Source: Ferrimicrobium sp.
Lineage (GTDB): Bacteria; Actinomycetota; Acidimicrobiia; Acidimicrobiales; Acidimicrobiaceae
Reading direction: 5' to 3'
DNA length: 37,610 nt
Assembly (NCBI GenBank): GCA_022690815.1
Contig: JALCZJ010000025.1
Location: 1 to 37,610, forward strand
Shown here: one piece after another, positions 11,728 to 35,618 of the stretch
How the letters are laid out: the number at the start of each line of letters is the position of its first letter
Numbering within the stretch: the first letter of the stretch is position 1
The notes under the pieces: generated by a model
Told to the model about the DNA's origin: nothing
Databases searched by the model: none
What the model saw: only the letters and a program-made list of their open reading frames with translations
Position numbers and translations under genes: made by a program

Positions 11728-12633
11728 ATGAGAACCTTGGCGTTGTCTGAGGGAAGTTGGGATTGGACGAAGACGGTCAAGGGCTACGTCGGCCTCACGA
11801 AGCCGCGCATCATTGAGCTGTTGCTGATCACCACGGTCCCAGCGATGGTGGTAGCAAAACATGGGCTCCCGTCACTGTTTTCCATCGTCATCACCGTCGC
11901 CGGCGGAACCTTGGCCGCTGGCGGCGCAAACGCCGTCAACATGTGGTACGACCGAGACATCGATGCGCTCATGAAGCGCACCAAGAATCGTCCGCTCGTT
12001 ACCGGTGCGGTCTCTCCAACAGGAGCGCTCATTTTTGCTATCGCGCTCGAGGTCATCGCGTTCGCGATGCTCTCATGGGGTGATAACGTGCTATCGGCCT
12101 CGCTCGCGCTGGCTGCTGCGTTGTTCTACGTCTTTATTTATACGATGTGGCTGAAGCGTTCGACGTCACAAAACATCGTGATCGGTGGGGCCGCTGGGGC
12201 GGTGCCCGTGCTGGTGGGCTGGGCTGCAGTGACCGATTCGCTATCGCTCGCTGCCTGGCTGATGTTTCTGGTCATCTTCATCTGGACTCCACCGCATTTT
12301 TGGGGGCTTGCATTTCGGTACTCCGACGACTACTCGGCCGCTGGTGTGCCCATGCTGCCGTCGGTCGCCACCCGGAAGCGCTCGGCGCGTGACATTCTCA
12401 TCTACACCTTCGTCCTCGCTGCAACTACCGGGGCGCTCGGCTTTGCGGCCCACTTAGGTTGGGTGTATGCGGTAGCGGCAATCGCATTGAACGCTGGCTT
12501 TATCGGTTATGCCATCAAGCTCTACCGCAATCTCACACCCAAGGTAGCCATGCGGGTCTTCTCCTATTCGATCACGTATCTGTCGTTGCTGTTCATCGGC
12601 ATGGCCGTCGATGTGGCGGTTCGAGGTCACTGA
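11728..12633 (+). CDS. ctaB: Protoheme IX farnesyltransferase (heme O synthase)
   Basis: 301 residues, polytopic UbiA-family prenyltransferase that adds farnesyl to heme b to make heme O, the precursor of heme A for aa3-type oxidases. The substrate motif NMWYDRDIDALMKRTKNRPL contains the DxxxD aspartates; YTMWLKRST and WTPPHFWGLAFRYSDDY (second Asp-rich region) are also typical. About eight to nine membrane helices. It starts the respiratory block and shares the stop/start TGATG with the next gene. No ctaA (heme A synthase) is seen in the window. Confidence 0.97.
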   Translation: MRTLALSEGSWDWTKTVKGYVGLTKPRIIELLLITTVPAMVVAKHGLPSLFSIVITVAGGTLAAGGANAVNMWYDRDIDALMKRTKNRPLVTGAVSPTGALIFAIALEVIAFAMLSWGDNVLSASLALAAALFYVFIYTMWLKRSTSQNIVIGGAAGAVPVLVGWAAVTDSLSLAAWLMFLVIFIWTPPHFWGLAFRYSDDYSAAGVPMLPSVATRKRSARDILIYTFVLAATTGALGFAAHLGWVYAVAAIALNAGFIGYAIKLYRNLTPKVAMRVFSYSITYLSLLFIGMAVDVAVRGH

Positions 12634-13377: not shown

Positions 13378-14061
13378 ATGAATAAGGGTGCAAGAATTTC
13401 GATTGTTCTTGTGTCTGCAGCAGTCGCTGTTGGGTTGATTCTGTTCGGTATCTTCGGGTACCTGCGAACCTATCCACCGACGGTTGTATTCACGCCTTCT
13501 CCAACGCAGCCACATACGGTTGACGTGACGTTGCAGGTTGATCCAGATGTTGGACCGGGACATGCACATCCGGCGTGGCCGGGCTGGTTTGCCAAGAATG
13601 CGCAGGGTAAGTGGGTCCAGACAACCCTCTATCAGGTGCCTGAGAGGACCTATGTCCACGTGACGGTCTATGAGTACGATTCGGGTGGTCCACTCCGCAA
13701 TCCAATTTGGGGTAAAGTCACCGGCACGGTTGGCAACGATGTCGTTTTGAACGGCAAGACTGTCAGCTTGTTGGATGCGGCCCAAGGCTTCGGTGTTGGT
13801 CATACGATAGTGGCTCCAGCCTTGGGCCTTTCGGTCCCGGTGTGGGGTCTGAGTGGCACGGAAAAGACGTTCTGTCAGACTGGCCCGTGTACGTTGTCGA
13901 ATGCTCATAACGTAGAGACGTTTACCTTCTATACGGGTAACCATCCACATAACTATCGTTGGCAGTGCTTTATCCCTTGTGGAGCTGGCTACTTGAATGG
14001 CAACGGTGGTCCAATGGCGACCACTGGTTACATGGCTGGCTTCTGGAAGGTGGTGGCCTAA
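13378..14061 (+). CDS. Membrane-anchored cupredoxin-like protein of the oxidase cluster
   Basis: 227 residues; ATG 13378 preceded by AAAGGGGGTGAAGG. A single N-terminal helix (about 8-30) anchors an extracytoplasmic domain. Near the C-terminus are candidate copper ligands: His177 (NAHNVETF), Cys197 and Cys201 in WQCFIPCGAG, and Met213 (GGPMATTGYM). The Cys-x3-Cys spacing is that of a CuA site, but the next CuA ligand (His, four residues on) is Tyr here. Another cysteine pair, Cys166/Cys171, lies upstream. The gene shares a TAATG junction with coxB. It may be an extra electron carrier or oxidase subunit. The family is not one I can name with certainty. Confidence 0.8.
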   Translation: MNKGARISIVLVSAAVAVGLILFGIFGYLRTYPPTVVFTPSPTQPHTVDVTLQVDPDVGPGHAHPAWPGWFAKNAQGKWVQTTLYQVPERTYVHVTVYEYDSGGPLRNPIWGKVTGTVGNDVVLNGKTVSLLDAAQGFGVGHTIVAPALGLSVPVWGLSGTEKTFCQTGPCTLSNAHNVETFTFYTGNHPHNYRWQCFIPCGAGYLNGNGGPMATTGYMAGFWKVVA

Positions 14062-14978
14062 TGGCGATGACCGAAGAGGCGATGAGGGAGCGTAAGGAGT
14101 ACGCCAAGAAGGCGGGATGGAAGATCTTCGCCATTTGGTTGGTACTTTCGCTGATCGGCGAAGTGTTGGTGCTCTATGTCTGGGGGCCACATATGCCACC
14201 AGGTGACATGACCACCTCGGCGGCGAGTCAGCAGTTCGACTTCAAGGTGCTCACCGCCATGGTGGTACCGGTCTTGTTGATGGTCTGGGTTTATGGGGCG
14301 TGGTCGCTGATCAACTTCCATGCCACCAAGACCGATCGAGGAGATGGTATCCCGTTGCGCGGGAATCGGCGCGTGCAAGGAATCTGGTATGTCACTTCGG
14401 CGGCGCTGGTGCTCTTCTTGGCCGGTTTCGGTACGTATGAGCTGATCAACGGCAACGGTGTCGGTAGTGGTGAAGGTCCATCACCGATTTGGAAGCCGAC
14501 GGCAAAACACATGTTGGTGGTGCAGGTGATTGCCCAGCAATGGCGTTTTACCTATCGGTGGCCGCAGTTCGGGGGCATGGAGACGACCTCCATTGACCTT
14601 CCGGCCGATACCACCATCCAGTTCGATGTGACTTCGCTCGATGTCATCCACGACTTCTGGGCCTATCAGCTCGGTGTCAAGGCTGATGCGAACCCGGATG
14701 TGAACAACGTGGCCTATACGACCACCTCGAACCAGTTGGGGCGCTTCACCGTTCGCTGTGACGAGCTCTGTGGGATCTGGCATGGTGCTATGTATAACTA
14801 CGGGCACGTGGTCTCAAAGTCGGCCTTCTACACGTGGGCATCCAATATGGAGGCACAGAATGCGTCGGTGACGAAGCTTCTTCCTCCGTTCGCGACAACC
14901 TATACCCCTTCGTACTCCGGTGCGGGTGGTGGTTATTATCCGTCGTATGACCCCAACGGTCATGCGGTAACGTATTAA
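14061..14978 (+). CDS. coxB: Cytochrome c oxidase subunit II (CuA-containing)
   Basis: 305 residues from ATG 14061. Two or three N-terminal membrane helices (around 20-42, 64-83 and 112-134) lead to the extracytoplasmic cupredoxin domain. The CuA ligands are complete: His197 (DVIHDFW), then CDELCGIWHGAM giving Cys233, Glu235 (backbone), Cys237, His241 and Met244. This implies electron entry by a soluble or bound donor such as a cytochrome c or cupredoxin, not quinol. The C-terminal tail is Tyr/Ser/Gly/Pro-rich. An aromatic region VIAQQWRFTYRWP precedes the CuA domain as in other family members. Confidence 0.97.
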   Translation: MAMTEEAMRERKEYAKKAGWKIFAIWLVLSLIGEVLVLYVWGPHMPPGDMTTSAASQQFDFKVLTAMVVPVLLMVWVYGAWSLINFHATKTDRGDGIPLRGNRRVQGIWYVTSAALVLFLAGFGTYELINGNGVGSGEGPSPIWKPTAKHMLVVQVIAQQWRFTYRWPQFGGMETTSIDLPADTTIQFDVTSLDVIHDFWAYQLGVKADANPDVNNVAYTTTSNQLGRFTVRCDELCGIWHGAMYNYGHVVSKSAFYTWASNMEAQNASVTKLLPPFATTYTPSYSGAGGGYYPSYDPNGHAVTY

Positions 14979-14990
14979 AGGAGCTTGTAA

Positions 14991-16940
14991 ATGGCAATTG
15001 ATATGACGCCAGCCGCGGGTGTCGGTTCTCCAACCGACCTCGAGGCTCGGGGCCTCAAAGCCGCCAAGCCATGGTTCAAGGGAAATATGATCACCGCGCT
15101 GATCGGCGGCGGGATCGGGTATGCCTTCGGCCACTGGCTCGGCAACGCCATTGCCTCGAACTATTCCGTGTACGTAAGTAGTGGTCAAAATGAGGTTGCG
15201 ATCTACCTCTCGTTGATCATCGGCTGCCTCGGTTGGTTTATTGGTCTTGGGGCTTTGAACTATCCGATTCAAAAACTGCTTGGTCTTGAGCCCGCTGAGG
15301 CGCCCAAGAGCGAGAAGCGGACGTTTTGGGAGCACTTTACGTATTCGACCGATCACAAGGTTGTTGGCGTTCAGTACCTCTTTGGAATGCTGCTGTACTT
15401 CCTCGTTGCTGGGTTGTTGGCCCTCGGTATCCGTACCGAGCTGCTCTCACCGGTGAACCATATCTGGGCGCCGGATACCTACATCGAGATCGTTGGCGAG
15501 CACGGAACCATGATGATGATGATGATGACGTCCATCGTTATGGGCCCATTTGGTAACTATCTGATTCCGCTCATGATTGGGTCGAAGAAGATGGCGTTCC
15601 CGCGTCTCGAGGCAGCGTCGTTCTGGTTCACGGTTCCGTCGTTCTTGATCCTCCTCTCTGCGCTTTGGCAGGGTGGTTTTCAGTCAGGATGGACGGGCTA
15701 TGCCCCATTGTCGATCCAAGGGGGTCCAGGCCAGAGCGACTATGATGTCGCTTTTGCGTTGATGGCTCTGTCGATGATCTGCGCTTCCATCAATATGGCG
15801 GCAACCATCATCAACTATCGTGCGCCAGGTATGCGCTGGTCGAGGATGCCGATCCTCTCGTGGGGCATGATTACCACAGCGTTCACGATGTTGCTGTCAG
15901 TGCCGGTGCTCTTCGATGGACTTTATGTGATGAGCCTTGACCGAGGGGTCCGCACGGCTATGCTCTATGCCGGGCATGGAGGTAGCTCCTTCCTTTGGGA
16001 AAACCTCTTCTGGTTCTTTGGGCATCCTGAGGTCTACCTGTTGGCCCTGCCTGGCTTTGCCATCACGGTTGAGATGCTGCCGGTCTTTGCCCGTAAACCA
16101 GTGTTTGCGCTGAAGACCTCGACGGCCGGACTCATCGGTGTCGCGGTACTGAGCTTCTTCGTTTGGCAGCATCACTTGTTCATGTCGGGTATGAACCCTG
16201 ATATGCGGCCGTTGTTCATGTTGACCACGGAGCTGATCTCCATTCCTACCGGATTCCTGTATCTGGTGGCAATGGGTACCGTTTGGCGAGGCAAGATTCG
16301 CTTTGAGGTCCCGATGTTGTTCCTCTTGGCTGTCTTTTGGAACTTCCTCTGGGGTGGCGTTACGGGTGTGTACAACTCTGACGTTCCGGTTGATGCCCTG
16401 GTGCACGGAAGTTTCTTCGTCATGGCGCACTTCCACTTCACCATTATGGGTCAGCTGATCTTTGCGGTGTTTGCGGCGGTGTACTACTACACGCCATTAA
16501 TCTTCGGCATACGGTTGAATGACAAGTTGGGTAAGATCAGCTTCTGGATTATCTTCGTGGCGTTCAACTCGACCTTCCTGCCGTTGTTCATGATCGGCTT
16601 GCTTGGCCAGCCTCGACGTGTGTTCGAATATGCCGTGCGCTTGCAGCACTTGAATCAGTGGGTGTCTATTTCGGCCTACGTCCTAGGCTTCGGTATCTTG
16701 TTGTACGTGATTAATCTCATTTGGTCGCTAGCGGTGACGAGGACACCGTCGGGTCCAAACCCATGGGAGTCGCGTGGACTCGAGTGGCAAGTTGGTTACC
16801 CGATCCCGCCGGATAACTTCGTGAAGATCCCGGTTGTCAACCGTGATCCGTATGGGTATGGCACCGGGGATGATACACCGGTCGCTGATCTTGACCCAGT
16901 GGGTGACAGGGCTGCTGTTGTGACTGGAGGTGATGCGTAG
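14991..16940 (+). CDS. coxA: Cytochrome c oxidase subunit I with altered proton-channel residues
   Basis: 649 residues; SD AAAGGAG. Catalytic subunit with heme a and the heme a3-CuB centre. Present: heme a ligand His171 in GEHGTMM, CuB ligands His345 (GHPEVY, with Glu347 and the cross-link Tyr349), His394/His395 (WQHHLF), and the heme pair in MAHFHF. Aligned by motif to bovine numbering, the D-channel entry Asp91 is Lys200 (IGSKKMAFPR instead of IGAPDMAFPR) and the K-channel Lys319 is Leu423 (IPTGFLYL instead of IPTGVKVF); the Mg-site Asp369 is Gly. The N-terminus has an extra region of about 95 residues with two membrane helices. Six consecutive Met codons (15510-15527) lie next to His171. 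It ends in a TAGTG overlap with coxC. Confidence 0.97.
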   Translation: MAIDMTPAAGVGSPTDLEARGLKAAKPWFKGNMITALIGGGIGYAFGHWLGNAIASNYSVYVSSGQNEVAIYLSLIIGCLGWFIGLGALNYPIQKLLGLEPAEAPKSEKRTFWEHFTYSTDHKVVGVQYLFGMLLYFLVAGLLALGIRTELLSPVNHIWAPDTYIEIVGEHGTMMMMMMTSIVMGPFGNYLIPLMIGSKKMAFPRLEAASFWFTVPSFLILLSALWQGGFQSGWTGYAPLSIQGGPGQSDYDVAFALMALSMICASINMAATIINYRAPGMRWSRMPILSWGMITTAFTMLLSVPVLFDGLYVMSLDRGVRTAMLYAGHGGSSFLWENLFWFFGHPEVYLLALPGFAITVEMLPVFARKPVFALKTSTAGLIGVAVLSFFVWQHHLFMSGMNPDMRPLFMLTTELISIPTGFLYLVAMGTVWRGKIRFEVPMLFLLAVFWNFLWGGVTGVYNSDVPVDALVHGSFFVMAHFHFTIMGQLIFAVFAAVYYYTPLIFGIRLNDKLGKISFWIIFVAFNSTFLPLFMIGLLGQPRRVFEYAVRLQHLNQWVSISAYVLGFGILLYVINLIWSLAVTRTPSGPNPWESRGLEWQVGYPIPPDNFVKIPVVNRDPYGYGTGDDTPVADLDPVGDRAAVVTGGDA

Positions 16941-17599
16941 TGGCTACTGGCGTACAGTCAGCTGATGCTCAGCCGGTTATCGACGAGGAGCAGTATTACC
17001 ATGATGCCCAGCTTGGGGCGCTTTGGACGGCTTCGCGCACGCTGATTCCGGTGGTGGCTACCACCTTTGGTGGGATCTACTTTGCCTACTTCTATCTGCG
17101 CTCGCTCAACTCGAATGGGTTGTGGGATCCGCATGGTCAGACTGCGTCAAAGATCATAGGGCTAGCAGTTCTGCTGCTCGTGGTCGTTGGGACTGCGGTT
17201 CAGCTCATGGCGGGCCGTCGGCTTCGTAGAGGCTTCAGCACCGACTTCATCGTGGGTACTGCGGCTAATACGTTGCTGCTCGTTATTGCCACCGGACTGC
17301 AGATTTGGGAGCTCACTCGGCTCCCATTTCCGCCGGCGGCCAGCGGGTATGCGGGGGTGTTCATCGCCTTTGCACCGATTAACGCACTCTGTATTGGTCT
17401 GAGCGCGTATTGGGTGTTTACGTTGATGATGCGGGCGATTCGCAGTTACAACTTCTATCGGGCTGACGGTGGGATAGGTGTTTCGGCACATCGCGCAGCT
17501 GAGAACTTCCGGGCAAACGTCGATGGTTTCGGCGCTTACGGTATCTTCTTCATGCTGTTGTCGATCCTGTCGTGGTACCTGTTCTACGTGTTGCATTAG
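16940..17599 (+). CDS. coxC: Cytochrome c oxidase subunit III-like protein
   Basis: 219 residues starting at GTG 16940, sharing one base with the coxA stop. About five membrane helices, with the final ANVDGFGAYGIFFMLLSILSWYLFYVL typical of the end of subunit III (normally W.FV..VWL.LF...Y). The conserved family Glu and the central His-x-x-H motif are not obvious, so it is a divergent member. Subunit III stabilises the catalytic subunit and supports proton uptake. Assignment rests on length, topology and operon position. Confidence 0.88.
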   Translation: MATGVQSADAQPVIDEEQYYHDAQLGALWTASRTLIPVVATTFGGIYFAYFYLRSLNSNGLWDPHGQTASKIIGLAVLLLVVVGTAVQLMAGRRLRRGFSTDFIVGTAANTLLLVIATGLQIWELTRLPFPPAASGYAGVFIAFAPINALCIGLSAYWVFTLMMRAIRSYNFYRADGGIGVSAHRAAENFRANVDGFGAYGIFFMLLSILSWYLFYVLH

Positions 17600-33845: not shown

Positions 33846-35618
33846 ATGCCTGGAATGGGGAGTCCGAGTCTTAGTTCTTTTGGACTTGCAGCTCCGTTTT
33901 ATCATCGGGTTGCGATCGAAGCGCTGATCTTGGCAGTGGTCGCGTTTGTACTGATCGCTGCGCGCTTCCTCCTCTATGGTACGGCGTTTCGAGGTACCCC
34001 CGCCTTGGCGGTGCGCGGCGGTGACGAGGCTGGGGTGGCAACGCGGATCATGGAGCCTCGAGCACGTGCGGTGCTTCGCTACGGCTTTGGTGCATTATGG
34101 ATCCTCGATGGGTTGCTGCAGTTGCAGAGTTCGATGCCGACGTCGATGATCTCGCAGGTAATTCAACCCGCAGAGACCGGACAGCCGCACTGGCTCGTTG
34201 AGTTGATGCAGTGGGGGACGAGTGCGTGGTTTCGCCATCCGATCTGGTCAGCCTCGGGGGTGATCTGGGTTCAGATCGCGATTGGACTGTGGTTGATCCT
34301 TGGTCGTGAGGGATGGTTCTCCAAGCTGGGTTACCTTCTTGCAGCCGGTTGGGGCCTGTTTGTCTGGGTGTTCGGTGAGGCAATGGGTCAAACCTTTGGC
34401 CATGGTGGCTCCTGGCTCTTTGGTGCTCCTGGTGGTGTTCTCTTCTACGTTGTAGCGGCGCTCGTATTGTTGGCCCCGTATGCCTGGTGGCAGCGGGACA
34501 AGTTGCCCCGGTGGATTCTCATGGCTGTTGGTGTGATGTTGATCGCCTTCGGCATCCAGGAGGCGCTGCCTGGACGAGGGTTTTGGAGTTTTCAGATTCC
34601 TCAGATGGTCGCGTCAATGGCCAAGGTCTCTCAACCGGGCATCATCGCCGCCAGTCTGCGGGGCTTTTATCATCTGCTTGGCGCCAACGGTGGCGCGATC
34701 GTCAACGGCATCACGGTTGCTGTCCTCGTGATCGTCGGTGCCTCCTTCGTCCTTCGCAAGGGCCTGCGGATCACCCTCCCGGTGTTTGCACTCTTCTCGG
34801 TGCTTGTGTGGTGGTTTCTTCAGGATTTCGGAGTTCTCGGTGGCGTTGGCACCGACCCGAACTCGATGTTGCCCGAACTGCTCCTCGTCATTGCTGCCGT
34901 GATGGGGCTCTCCTACTCGGAGGCGTTTGCAACCCAGCCGGCTGGGTTCTGGCCCGAGACGCTGAGCCAAGCGGGTCGACTTTTTGGTATCTGGGTGGTA
35001 GTGCTTGGTCTTGTTGGCGTGGTGCCACTTGGGTTTGCCACGGTGAACACCAGCTATTCGATTGAGTCGGCGCTCGCCTCCTCGGGTGCACCGTTTCAGA
35101 TCGATCACCCAGCTGCTGGATTTACACTGCTCGATCAGTCCGGGAACACGGTATCGTCATCGACGTTCAAGGGCAAGACGCTGATCGTGACGTTCCTCGA
35201 TCCAGTCTGTACTGACACCTGTCCACTGATCGCATCTGAGTTGCGGGAAGCGGATGAGCAGCTCTCTCCGGCACAGCGAGCCAACACGGACGTCATCGCG
35301 ATCGCGGCCAACCCGATCTTTCATAGTGTGAGCGCGGTGCGCATCTTCACCGATCGGGAGGGGATGTCGACGCTGCCAAACTGGTACTTCTTGACCAGTC
35401 CCTCCCTCAAGAGCCTTGCGGCGGTGTGGCAAAACTACGGAGTGGGGCTGTCGGTGCCGCAAAATGGCGTGATGGTCGTGCACCCCGATCTGGTCTACAT
35501 CGTTAATCCTGCCGGTGTCGAGCGGTGGATGATACCGGCTGACCCGTCAGAGACGAGTGCTGTACAATCGAGTTTTGCCTCTTTGGTGGACTCCCTGGTC
35601 AAGGGTGTACAGCATTGA
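33846..35618 (+). CDS. Polytopic membrane protein fused to a Sco-type copper chaperone domain
   Basis: 590 residues from ATG 33846 (AAGGAG upstream). Residues 1-400 contain about nine membrane helices, including RAVLRYGFGALWILDGLLQL and a HGGSWLFGAPGG loop, reminiscent of DoxX/DoxD-like membrane proteins though the family match is uncertain. Residues 420-590 are a Sco/SenC thioredoxin-fold domain: FTLLDQSGNTVSSSTFKGK, then FLDPVCTDTCPL with the copper-binding Cys455/Cys459, and His546 in VVHPDLVYIVNPAG, so all three Sco copper ligands are present. Sco proteins deliver copper to CuA of subunit II; the coxB with an intact CuA site is encoded about 19 kb upstream. Its stop overlaps a small ORF as TTGA. 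Confidence 0.85.
   Translation: MPGMGSPSLSSFGLAAPFYHRVAIEALILAVVAFVLIAARFLLYGTAFRGTPALAVRGGDEAGVATRIMEPRARAVLRYGFGALWILDGLLQLQSSMPTSMISQVIQPAETGQPHWLVELMQWGTSAWFRHPIWSASGVIWVQIAIGLWLILGREGWFSKLGYLLAAGWGLFVWVFGEAMGQTFGHGGSWLFGAPGGVLFYVVAALVLLAPYAWWQRDKLPRWILMAVGVMLIAFGIQEALPGRGFWSFQIPQMVASMAKVSQPGIIAASLRGFYHLLGANGGAIVNGITVAVLVIVGASFVLRKGLRITLPVFALFSVLVWWFLQDFGVLGGVGTDPNSMLPELLLVIAAVMGLSYSEAFATQPAGFWPETLSQAGRLFGIWVVVLGLVGVVPLGFATVNTSYSIESALASSGAPFQIDHPAAGFTLLDQSGNTVSSSTFKGKTLIVTFLDPVCTDTCPLIASELREADEQLSPAQRANTDVIAIAANPIFHSVSAVRIFTDREGMSTLPNWYFLTSPSLKSLAAVWQNYGVGLSVPQNGVMVVHPDLVYIVNPAGVERWMIPADPSETSAVQSSFASLVDSLVKGVQH

Follow-up and report, generated by a model that had tools for sequence, protein, structure and literature searches.

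A-type oxidases are defined in PMC3084760 by the presence of both proton channels, D and K, and Table 2 of that paper lists, in Paracoccus numbers, Asp124, Asn199, Asn113, Asn131, Tyr35, Ser134, Ser193 and Glu278 for the A1-type D channel, and Lys354, Thr351, Ser291 and Tyr280 for the K channel. Proton entry and the Asn139/Asn121 gate, on which pumping as opposed to mere water formation depends, have been studied mostly by means of point mutants. The residues D132, N139, E286 and K362 of R. sphaeroides, whose numbers we use for the channel positions, are equated with bovine D91, N98, E242 and K319 in PMC12901375 (Table 2). Enzymes carrying N98D or N139D reduce O2 with pumping decoupled (PMC12901375, PMC10194837, PMC4550891); N98D alters coupling and also rescues a step in a mutant of the K-channel Lys (PMC12901375). 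In the ba3 oxidase of T. thermophilus the 132 position is Arg and the D route is inactive (PMC12901375 Table 2).

Two further systems come close to the locus described here. PMC8239418 describes iron oxidisers whose '2TM' COX1 carries an additional pair of helices at its N terminus and branches basally in trees of bacterial COX1; it also discusses variants and losses of the K channel within family A, detailed there for archaeal sequences. The rus operon of A. ferrooxidans has the order cyc2-cyc1-cup-coxB-coxA-coxC (PMC2754497), and we infer that its cup gene is acoP. AcoP is a membrane-anchored cupredoxin encoded beside cox genes, with the copper ligands His85 and Cys159-X6-His166-X4-Met171 (PMC4059628), and is a partner of the oxidase within the same operon (PMC5982212, PMC4059628); PMC4059628 describes the pathway as poorly energetic.

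The window, a stretch of 37,610 nucleotides from Ferrimicrobium sp., contains the gene order cupredoxin-coxB-coxA-coxC (Table 1). The oxidase, shared by a group of mostly acidophilic bacteria, has intact metal sites; missing are Asp132, Lys362 and Ser299 as well as the subunit-II Glu, and position 139 is Glu. Its study would test what pumping needs. Such a natural version of changes known from laboratory mutants could test how the channels control proton pumping, and it bears on the energy gain of acidophilic iron oxidisers across a very small redox gap.

Table 1. Genes and codons in the window
Feature	Positions	Strand	Description
ctaB	11728..12633	+	heme O synthase; scores 391.9 bits (cut-off 246)
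orf227	13378..14061	+	membrane-anchored cupredoxin-like protein (AcoP/rusticyanin-like); stop overlaps coxB start
coxB	14061..14978	+	subunit II with CuA motif
coxB Gln codon	14376-14378	+	stands in for the Glu at the K-channel entrance (E89 in CyoA, E101-II in R. sphaeroides)
coxA	14991..16940	+	649-aa subunit I; belongs to a divergent second oxidase of the A family
Asn189 codon	15555..15557	+	R. sphaeroides N121; retained D-route residue
Lys200 codon	15588..15590	+	D-channel Asp position, D132 in R. sphaeroides and D91 in bovine
Glu207 codon	15609..15611	+	gate Asn position, N139 in R. sphaeroides and N98 in bovine; would be the new carboxylate of the D route
Asn268 codon	15792-15794	+	R. 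sphaeroides N207; retained D-route residue
Glu347 to Tyr349	16029..16037	+	E286 to Y288; retained GHPEVY motif
Glu414 codon	16230..16232	+	helix VIII, bovine Met310; fixed in Lys-less relatives
Leu423 codon	16257..16259	+	K-channel Lys position, K362 in R. sphaeroides and K319 in bovine
coxC-like gene	16940..17599	+	membrane protein, 219 aa; start overlaps coxA stop
SCO1/SenC gene	33846-35618	+	590-aa protein; long hydrophobic N-terminal part and C-terminal SCO1/SenC domain

Subunit I and its aligned positions

CoxA is a COX1 protein by its Pfam profile (PF00115, E 2.1e-116), and it scores 509 bits with TIGR02891, under the cut-off of 670.75. Its closest relatives among PDB chains (phmmer) are mycobacterial and corynebacterial subunits I, in which IGAPDVAFPR is aligned with IGSKKMAFPR of CoxA, and VPTGIKFF or VPTGIKFV with IPTGFLYL. 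E. coli CyoB (MG1655; D135, N142, E286, Y288, S299, T359, K362) served as numbered reference and gives the equivalences K200=D135, E207=N142, E347=E286, Y349=Y288, V360=S299, T420=T359 and L423=K362; the metal histidines H171, H345, H394, H395, H480 and H482 are all retained. Glu414 falls on CyoB 353, to which bovine Met310 was transferred by the same offset as K319 to K362. It lies nine residues ahead of the K-channel Lys position and is a candidate internal proton site.

The initial annotation had placed Lys200 and Leu423 at the D-channel Asp and the K-channel Lys and a Glu at bovine Asn98, and the CyoB-numbered alignment and the codons bear this out; the alignment likewise confirms that Glu347, Tyr349 and all metal ligands are kept, and Glu414 at bovine Met310 recurs throughout the Lys-less relatives (below). 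Misalignment was considered as a cause of these assignments and rejected: the motifs align without gaps, and the result is the same in four alignments.

Compared with the A1-type lists, CoxA has Lys200, Asn268, Asn189, Glu207, Tyr129, Ser210, Met262 and Glu347 in the D channel, where five of eight residues are retained and the name-giving Asp is not among them, and Leu423, Thr420, Val360 and Tyr349 in the K channel. The ligands of the binuclear centre and the helix-VI Tyr are present (His345, His394, His395, His480, Tyr349). CoxA thus departs from both channel lists, yet is A-type by its fold, its Tyr and its Glu286. Other types were considered and rejected. A B-type enzyme has no D channel and needs, for its alternative K channel, Thr, Ser and Tyr at the positions of Lys354, Thr351 and Ser291, where CoxA has Leu423, Thr420 and Val360; a C-type (cbb3) enzyme needs a catalytic helix-VII Tyr in place of the helix-VI Tyr349 of CoxA, as well as Ser and Tyr at Thr351 and Ser291 (Thr420 and Val360 in CoxA). 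Nitric oxide reductases have H-H-X-Arom-Arom-X17-E and no helix-VI Tyr, whereas CoxA has HHLFM and Tyr349, and Glu414 is two residues off the helix-VIII Glu of these enzymes, lying at +19 from the second His and not at +21.

The fold agrees with the A-type assignment. An AlphaFold2 model of CoxA from 29 sequences, of middling confidence (pLDDT 69.5, pTM 0.76), matches subunit I of R. sphaeroides best (3fye_C; Z 44.4, rmsd 2.4, 483 aligned residues), and the 50 structural matches listed include the K362M and D132A mutants as well as a Paracoccus enzyme decoupled by a D-pathway mutation. K200 lies within the loop 196-203 of the model and E207 at the head of the helix 204-226. CoxA has about 110 additional N-terminal residues with two predicted helices, which the model places at 33-55 and 68-86, ahead of the core helix 122-152, with high pLDDT in those blocks.

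Spread of the exchange and order of events

The comparison rests on 137 non-redundant COX1 rows, with duplicates merged and with the second CyoB copy and the canonical second copies left out, except for the other COX1 of the source genome (L001). They comprise 95 Asp-less rows, 31 sister rows and 11 outgroup rows (CyoB, L001 and nine plasmid-borne sequences, with no Acidithiobacillus sequence among them). The 95 rows were chosen by their residue at 132, and their status as a clade rests on the trees instead. Among the matches listed, the class-level search (below 1e-122) found relatives in at least 28 of 198 genomes and the phylum-level search (below 1e-125) in at least 16 of 396. Among the named relatives of the window gene are Ferrimicrobium sp. 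(94%), Ferrithrix thermotolerans (75%) and Acidithrix ferrooxidans (65%). To judge by their titles, the best 80 of 196 relatives include numerous genomes from bogs and palsas, and also Streptosporangiaceae, Trebonia kvetii being one of these.

The Asp position is occupied by Arg or Lys in 94 of the 95 rows and by Gly in one, and the combinations at 132 and 139 are Arg+Glu (76), Lys+Glu (17), Gly+Glu (1) and Arg+Gln (1). Glu at the gate position is thus found in 94/95 Asp-less rows as opposed to 0/42 other rows. All 31 sister rows have Asp132 and Asn139, yet lack Lys362, and the outgroup has Asp+Asn in nine rows, Asn+Asn in one and Asp+Gly in one. Lys362 is missing from all 126 rows of the two ingroups and present in 9/11 outgroup rows, the two others having Gln; conversely, Glu353, the equivalent of Glu414, occurs in 126/126 Lys-less rows and in 0/11 outgroup rows. 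Some single rows are noteworthy in themselves. L029 (G058), with Arg at 132, is the lone member of the Asp-less clade with Gln at 139 and a natural test of the need for the Glu, which, given this Gln, is not absolutely needed. The plasmid-borne L155 (Rhizobium; D132N, N121V, T359A, K362Q) and L159 (Dinoroseobacter; N139G, N121V, K362Q) cluster with each other in both trees. Thr at the K-channel Lys position is restricted to L147 and L149. Internal stop codons are flagged in the matches of L126, L147 and L149 (one TGA each) and of L138 (TGA and TAA), and may sit at match ends.

Two trees were rooted with CyoB, itself part of the 11-row outgroup: one of 91 rows (below 86% identity, above 480 aa, trait columns removed) and one of 32 rows with bootstraps, from which L156 and L160 were removed. 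Both recover the Lys-less rows as one clade (80 rows, SH-aLRT 99; 24 rows, 100/99) and, inside it, the Asp-less rows as another (56 rows, SH-aLRT 100; 12 rows, 100/99), the clade of Asp-less representatives containing no Asp-keeping member in either tree. The fewest changes on the 32-row tree are two at position 132, three at 139, two at 362 and one at 353, and the 91-row tree requires the same numbers for 132, 139 and 362; the further changes at these positions concern L155 and L159, plus L029, which is nested among Glu rows. The order of the three Lys-less groups is supported in the 32-row tree (95/94) and unsupported in the 91-row tree.

The loss of Lys362 and the gain of Glu353 came first; one later branch then saw both the disappearance of Asp132 and the appearance of Glu139. 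The sister rows keep the Asp and the Asn and lack the Lys; therefore the loss of the Lys preceded. The initial annotation had treated the two losses as one feature; on the trees they are two successive events, of which the loss of the Lys is the older and wider. As the nearly perfect covariation of 132 and 139 goes back to one event, it is unusable as a statistical test.

Besides the window gene, the source genome (2.54 Mb in 60 contigs) carries one other COX1, which is canonical at D, N and K (IGAPDMAFPR, VPTGIKVF); its CoxB, read by eye, has the Glu at the K-channel entrance. A window-type COX1 (at least 66% identity) was found in 26 Acidimicrobiaceae genomes, some of the genes being broken by contig ends and a 172-residue fragment in G034 being excluded from the count, and in 24 of the 26 a second COX1, from the 39-42% class, is listed as well; the genomes lacking one are 83% and 76% complete. 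Second copies (16 plus that of the source genome) have D, N, E and K, with Leu at 353, in 17/17 cases, and the losses are therefore specific to the window-type enzyme in these genomes. With a canonical oxidase at hand, the window gene might be a spare, degenerate or non-catalytic COX1, the channels of which decay as the gene is no longer needed. We regard this as very improbable: the metal histidines are complete in 108/108 sequences (duplicates counted), the column of Glu207 is among the more conserved ones (entropy rank 107 of 649), and the neighbouring genes are conserved, coxB being found in 79, orf227 in 77 and coxC in 74 of the best 80 of 196 loci (tblastn 1e-5).

What remains of each channel and how protons may enter

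The two channels have been affected to very different extents. Across the 95 Asp-less rows, the D-route positions Y33, N121, S142, N207, T211 and E286 are polar in 89-100%; in the serine zone, position 200 is polar in 57% and 201 non-polar in all, which makes the upper D route drier. On the K route, polar residues occur at 362 and at 365 in 2% of the rows and at 299 in 25%, and Thr352 and Thr359 are retained in every row. The corresponding polar fractions in the outgroup (n=11) are 100% for 362, 73% for 365, 91% for 299 and just 36% for 200. The entrance Glu of subunit II is gone from 89 of 92 distinct CoxB proteins of the clade (Gln 80, Ser 6, Glu 3, Thr 1, Ala 1, Val 1) and is found in 0/22 readable CoxB proteins of the sisters; these proteins were collected by a search for the CuA motif, which misses other motifs, including that of L001. 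From these sequences the K route looks closed and the D route modified but open.

With a probability of about one half, all protons of this enzyme would enter by a modified D route that uses Glu207, the K route being closed. The enzyme would then be a specialised second A-family cytochrome c oxidase with a single input channel, hosted by acidophilic, partly iron-oxidising Actinomycetota. Its K route would be shut by the absence of Lys362 and of the subunit-II Glu and by mostly non-polar residues at 299 and 365; the D-route carboxylate would stand at 139 (Glu207) in place of 132, with Y33, N121, S142, N207 and the terminal Glu286 retained. Protons would pass via Glu207, and Glu414 may aid protonation of the active site, replacing the K channel. 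The retained residues together with the fixed Glu207 make this the most economical answer, and it is favoured by the gain of Glu139 on the very branch on which Asp132 was lost, in both trees, by the retention of Arg481 and Arg482 in 56/56 rows and by the precedent of the N98D mutants. The suggestion in the initial annotation that the Glu at bovine Asn98 acts as a substitute carboxylate has thereby become a strong candidate. Against entry by the D route speak the basic residue at 132, which could hinder proton uptake as Arg goes with an inactive D route in ba3, the drier upper D route, the Gln of L029, and Thr352 and Thr359, which the K route has kept.

Whether such an enzyme pumps is a separate matter, and normal or reduced pumping on the one hand and no pumping on the other appear about equally likely. 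That the enzyme does not pump at all, the carboxylate at 139 decoupling it so that only cytoplasmic protons are consumed, is a reading to which we give somewhat less than even chances; it is compatible with entry through Glu207, and the odds of the two readings are therefore not mutually exclusive. It finds a precedent in the N98D and N139D enzymes, which reduce O2 without pumping. On energetic grounds, an Fe(II) donor and a large proton gradient would leave too little energy for one proton per electron. The Fe3+/Fe2+ potential is about 0.77 V, near the 0.844 V computed for O2/H2O at pH 6.5, and so small a gap at cytoplasmic pH argues for reduced pumping. The exit side speaks in both directions: Asn replaces Asp407 in 21 of 56 Asp-less rows and Gly occupies the Mg-site position 412 in 56/56, but Asp407 is retained in the other 35, Gly412 is shared with 11/24 Asp-keeping sister rows, and Glu286, Arg481 and Arg482 are invariant (both Arg in 56/56 Asp-less rows). 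Moreover, removal of Asp132 from the R. sphaeroides N139D mutant reportedly restored pumping (Branden 2006), and the clade extends beyond iron oxidisers.

It is unlikely that the D route is unused and that a new path, for example through Glu414 or the extra N-terminal helices, feeds the active site, with Glu207 and Arg/Lys200 joined in a salt bridge whose role is structural and which closes off the former mouth of the D channel. The single gain of Glu414, which is universal among the Lys-less rows and absent from the outgroup, and the combination of Arg132 with an inactive D route in ba3 would suit such a path. A sealed channel, however, does not require the inner residues N121, N207 and E286, all of which are retained, and neither the Gly of L065 nor the Gln of L029 can form the salt bridge. 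The 31 sister rows, in which the Asp is kept, share Glu414, and this residue therefore fails to account for the change at 132 and 139.

Entry by the modified D route agrees with part of the earlier proposal of "different proton entry or reduced pumping" in an oxidase facing very acidic medium: the canonical Asp and Lys are absent and Glu207 is a strong candidate substitute carboxylate, but the link to the medium, as worded, is not supported. D- and K-channel entrances open toward the cytoplasm, so the changed residues of CoxA are not in contact with the acidic medium, and the clade includes Streptosporangiaceae (Trebonia) and bog and palsa genomes. An indirect link, through the large gradient to be pumped against, is sensible but unproven.

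We tentatively propose, at somewhat less than even odds, that a large natural group of the A family lives on the D route alone and that one clade within it moved the carboxylate from 132 to 139. If so, the D-only group would mirror the B and C families, which are restricted to a K-type route, the recoupled laboratory mutant N139D/D132N would have its natural equivalent in the clade, and both name-giving channel residues as well as the gate Asn would be dispensable in a working A-family oxidase.

Possible electron donors and comparison with known systems

The protein encoded by the unannotated orf227 has a predicted N-terminal helix and near-invariant His142, Cys197, Cys201, Met213 and Met219 (123-124/125). 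Its profile matches AcoP (7z3g) with E 0.0016 over 34 residues, Cys included, and the best match of its model is rusticyanin 2cak (E 5.4e-4, TM 0.32/0.45, rmsd 11.3), a weak superposition like all of the top five Foldseek hits (rmsd 8.7-11.3). Its loop consists of C-x3-C, Met213 and Met219 and has no His, unlike that of AcoP. With such a loop, the protein may have a copper site of a new kind and be the point at which electrons enter the oxidase. A second CuA subunit, as the C-x3-C might suggest, was considered and rejected (probability 4.3 for its profile against CoxB, with the Cys region unaligned). The coxC-like protein gave no COX3 match in the Pfam search. The 590-aa SCO1/SenC protein apparently fuses copper delivery to a membrane domain.

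In its gene order the locus is like the rus operon of A. ferrooxidans, with a cupredoxin gene immediately upstream of coxB (PMC2754497). It differs from the rus system in that orf227 lacks the loop His of AcoP and in that the source genome has no match to TIGR03095 or PF06525 as signs of a rusticyanin or SoxE donor, a soft absence because the control genomes matched in only one case each (TIGR03095 below its cut-off).

Variation of the K channel in family A is known. For the exchange of Asp/Asn for Arg (Lys)/Glu at 132/139 we recognised no report in the open-licence literature, within which it may be new; subscription papers and supplements lie outside this scope, and it may be in print there. 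The '2TM' COX1 as described in PMC8239418 shares with CoxA the extra N-terminal helices, the missing canonical K channel and acidophile hosts; in this comparison by description, the difference is that the 31 sampled relatives which keep the Asp carry both Asp132 and Asn139. The B-type ba3 of T. thermophilus likewise has a basic residue, Arg, at the D-channel Asp position and a single channel type, but it uses an alternative K channel and has no Glu286, whereas CoxA keeps Glu286 and lacks the polar residues of the K route. The R. sphaeroides N139D/D132N mutant is said to carry, like CoxA, a carboxylate at 139 and none at 132; CoxA differs in being natural and fixed, in having Glu rather than Asp and Arg/Lys rather than Asn, and in missing the K-channel Lys. 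With the A1-type oxidases (R. sphaeroides, Paracoccus, bovine and actinobacterial aa3), CoxA shares the fold, the metal ligands, the helix-VI Tyr, the GHPEVY motif and a CuA subunit II; unlike them, it lacks Asp132, Lys362, Ser299 and the subunit-II Glu, and possesses a Glu at both 139 and 353 and a long N terminus.
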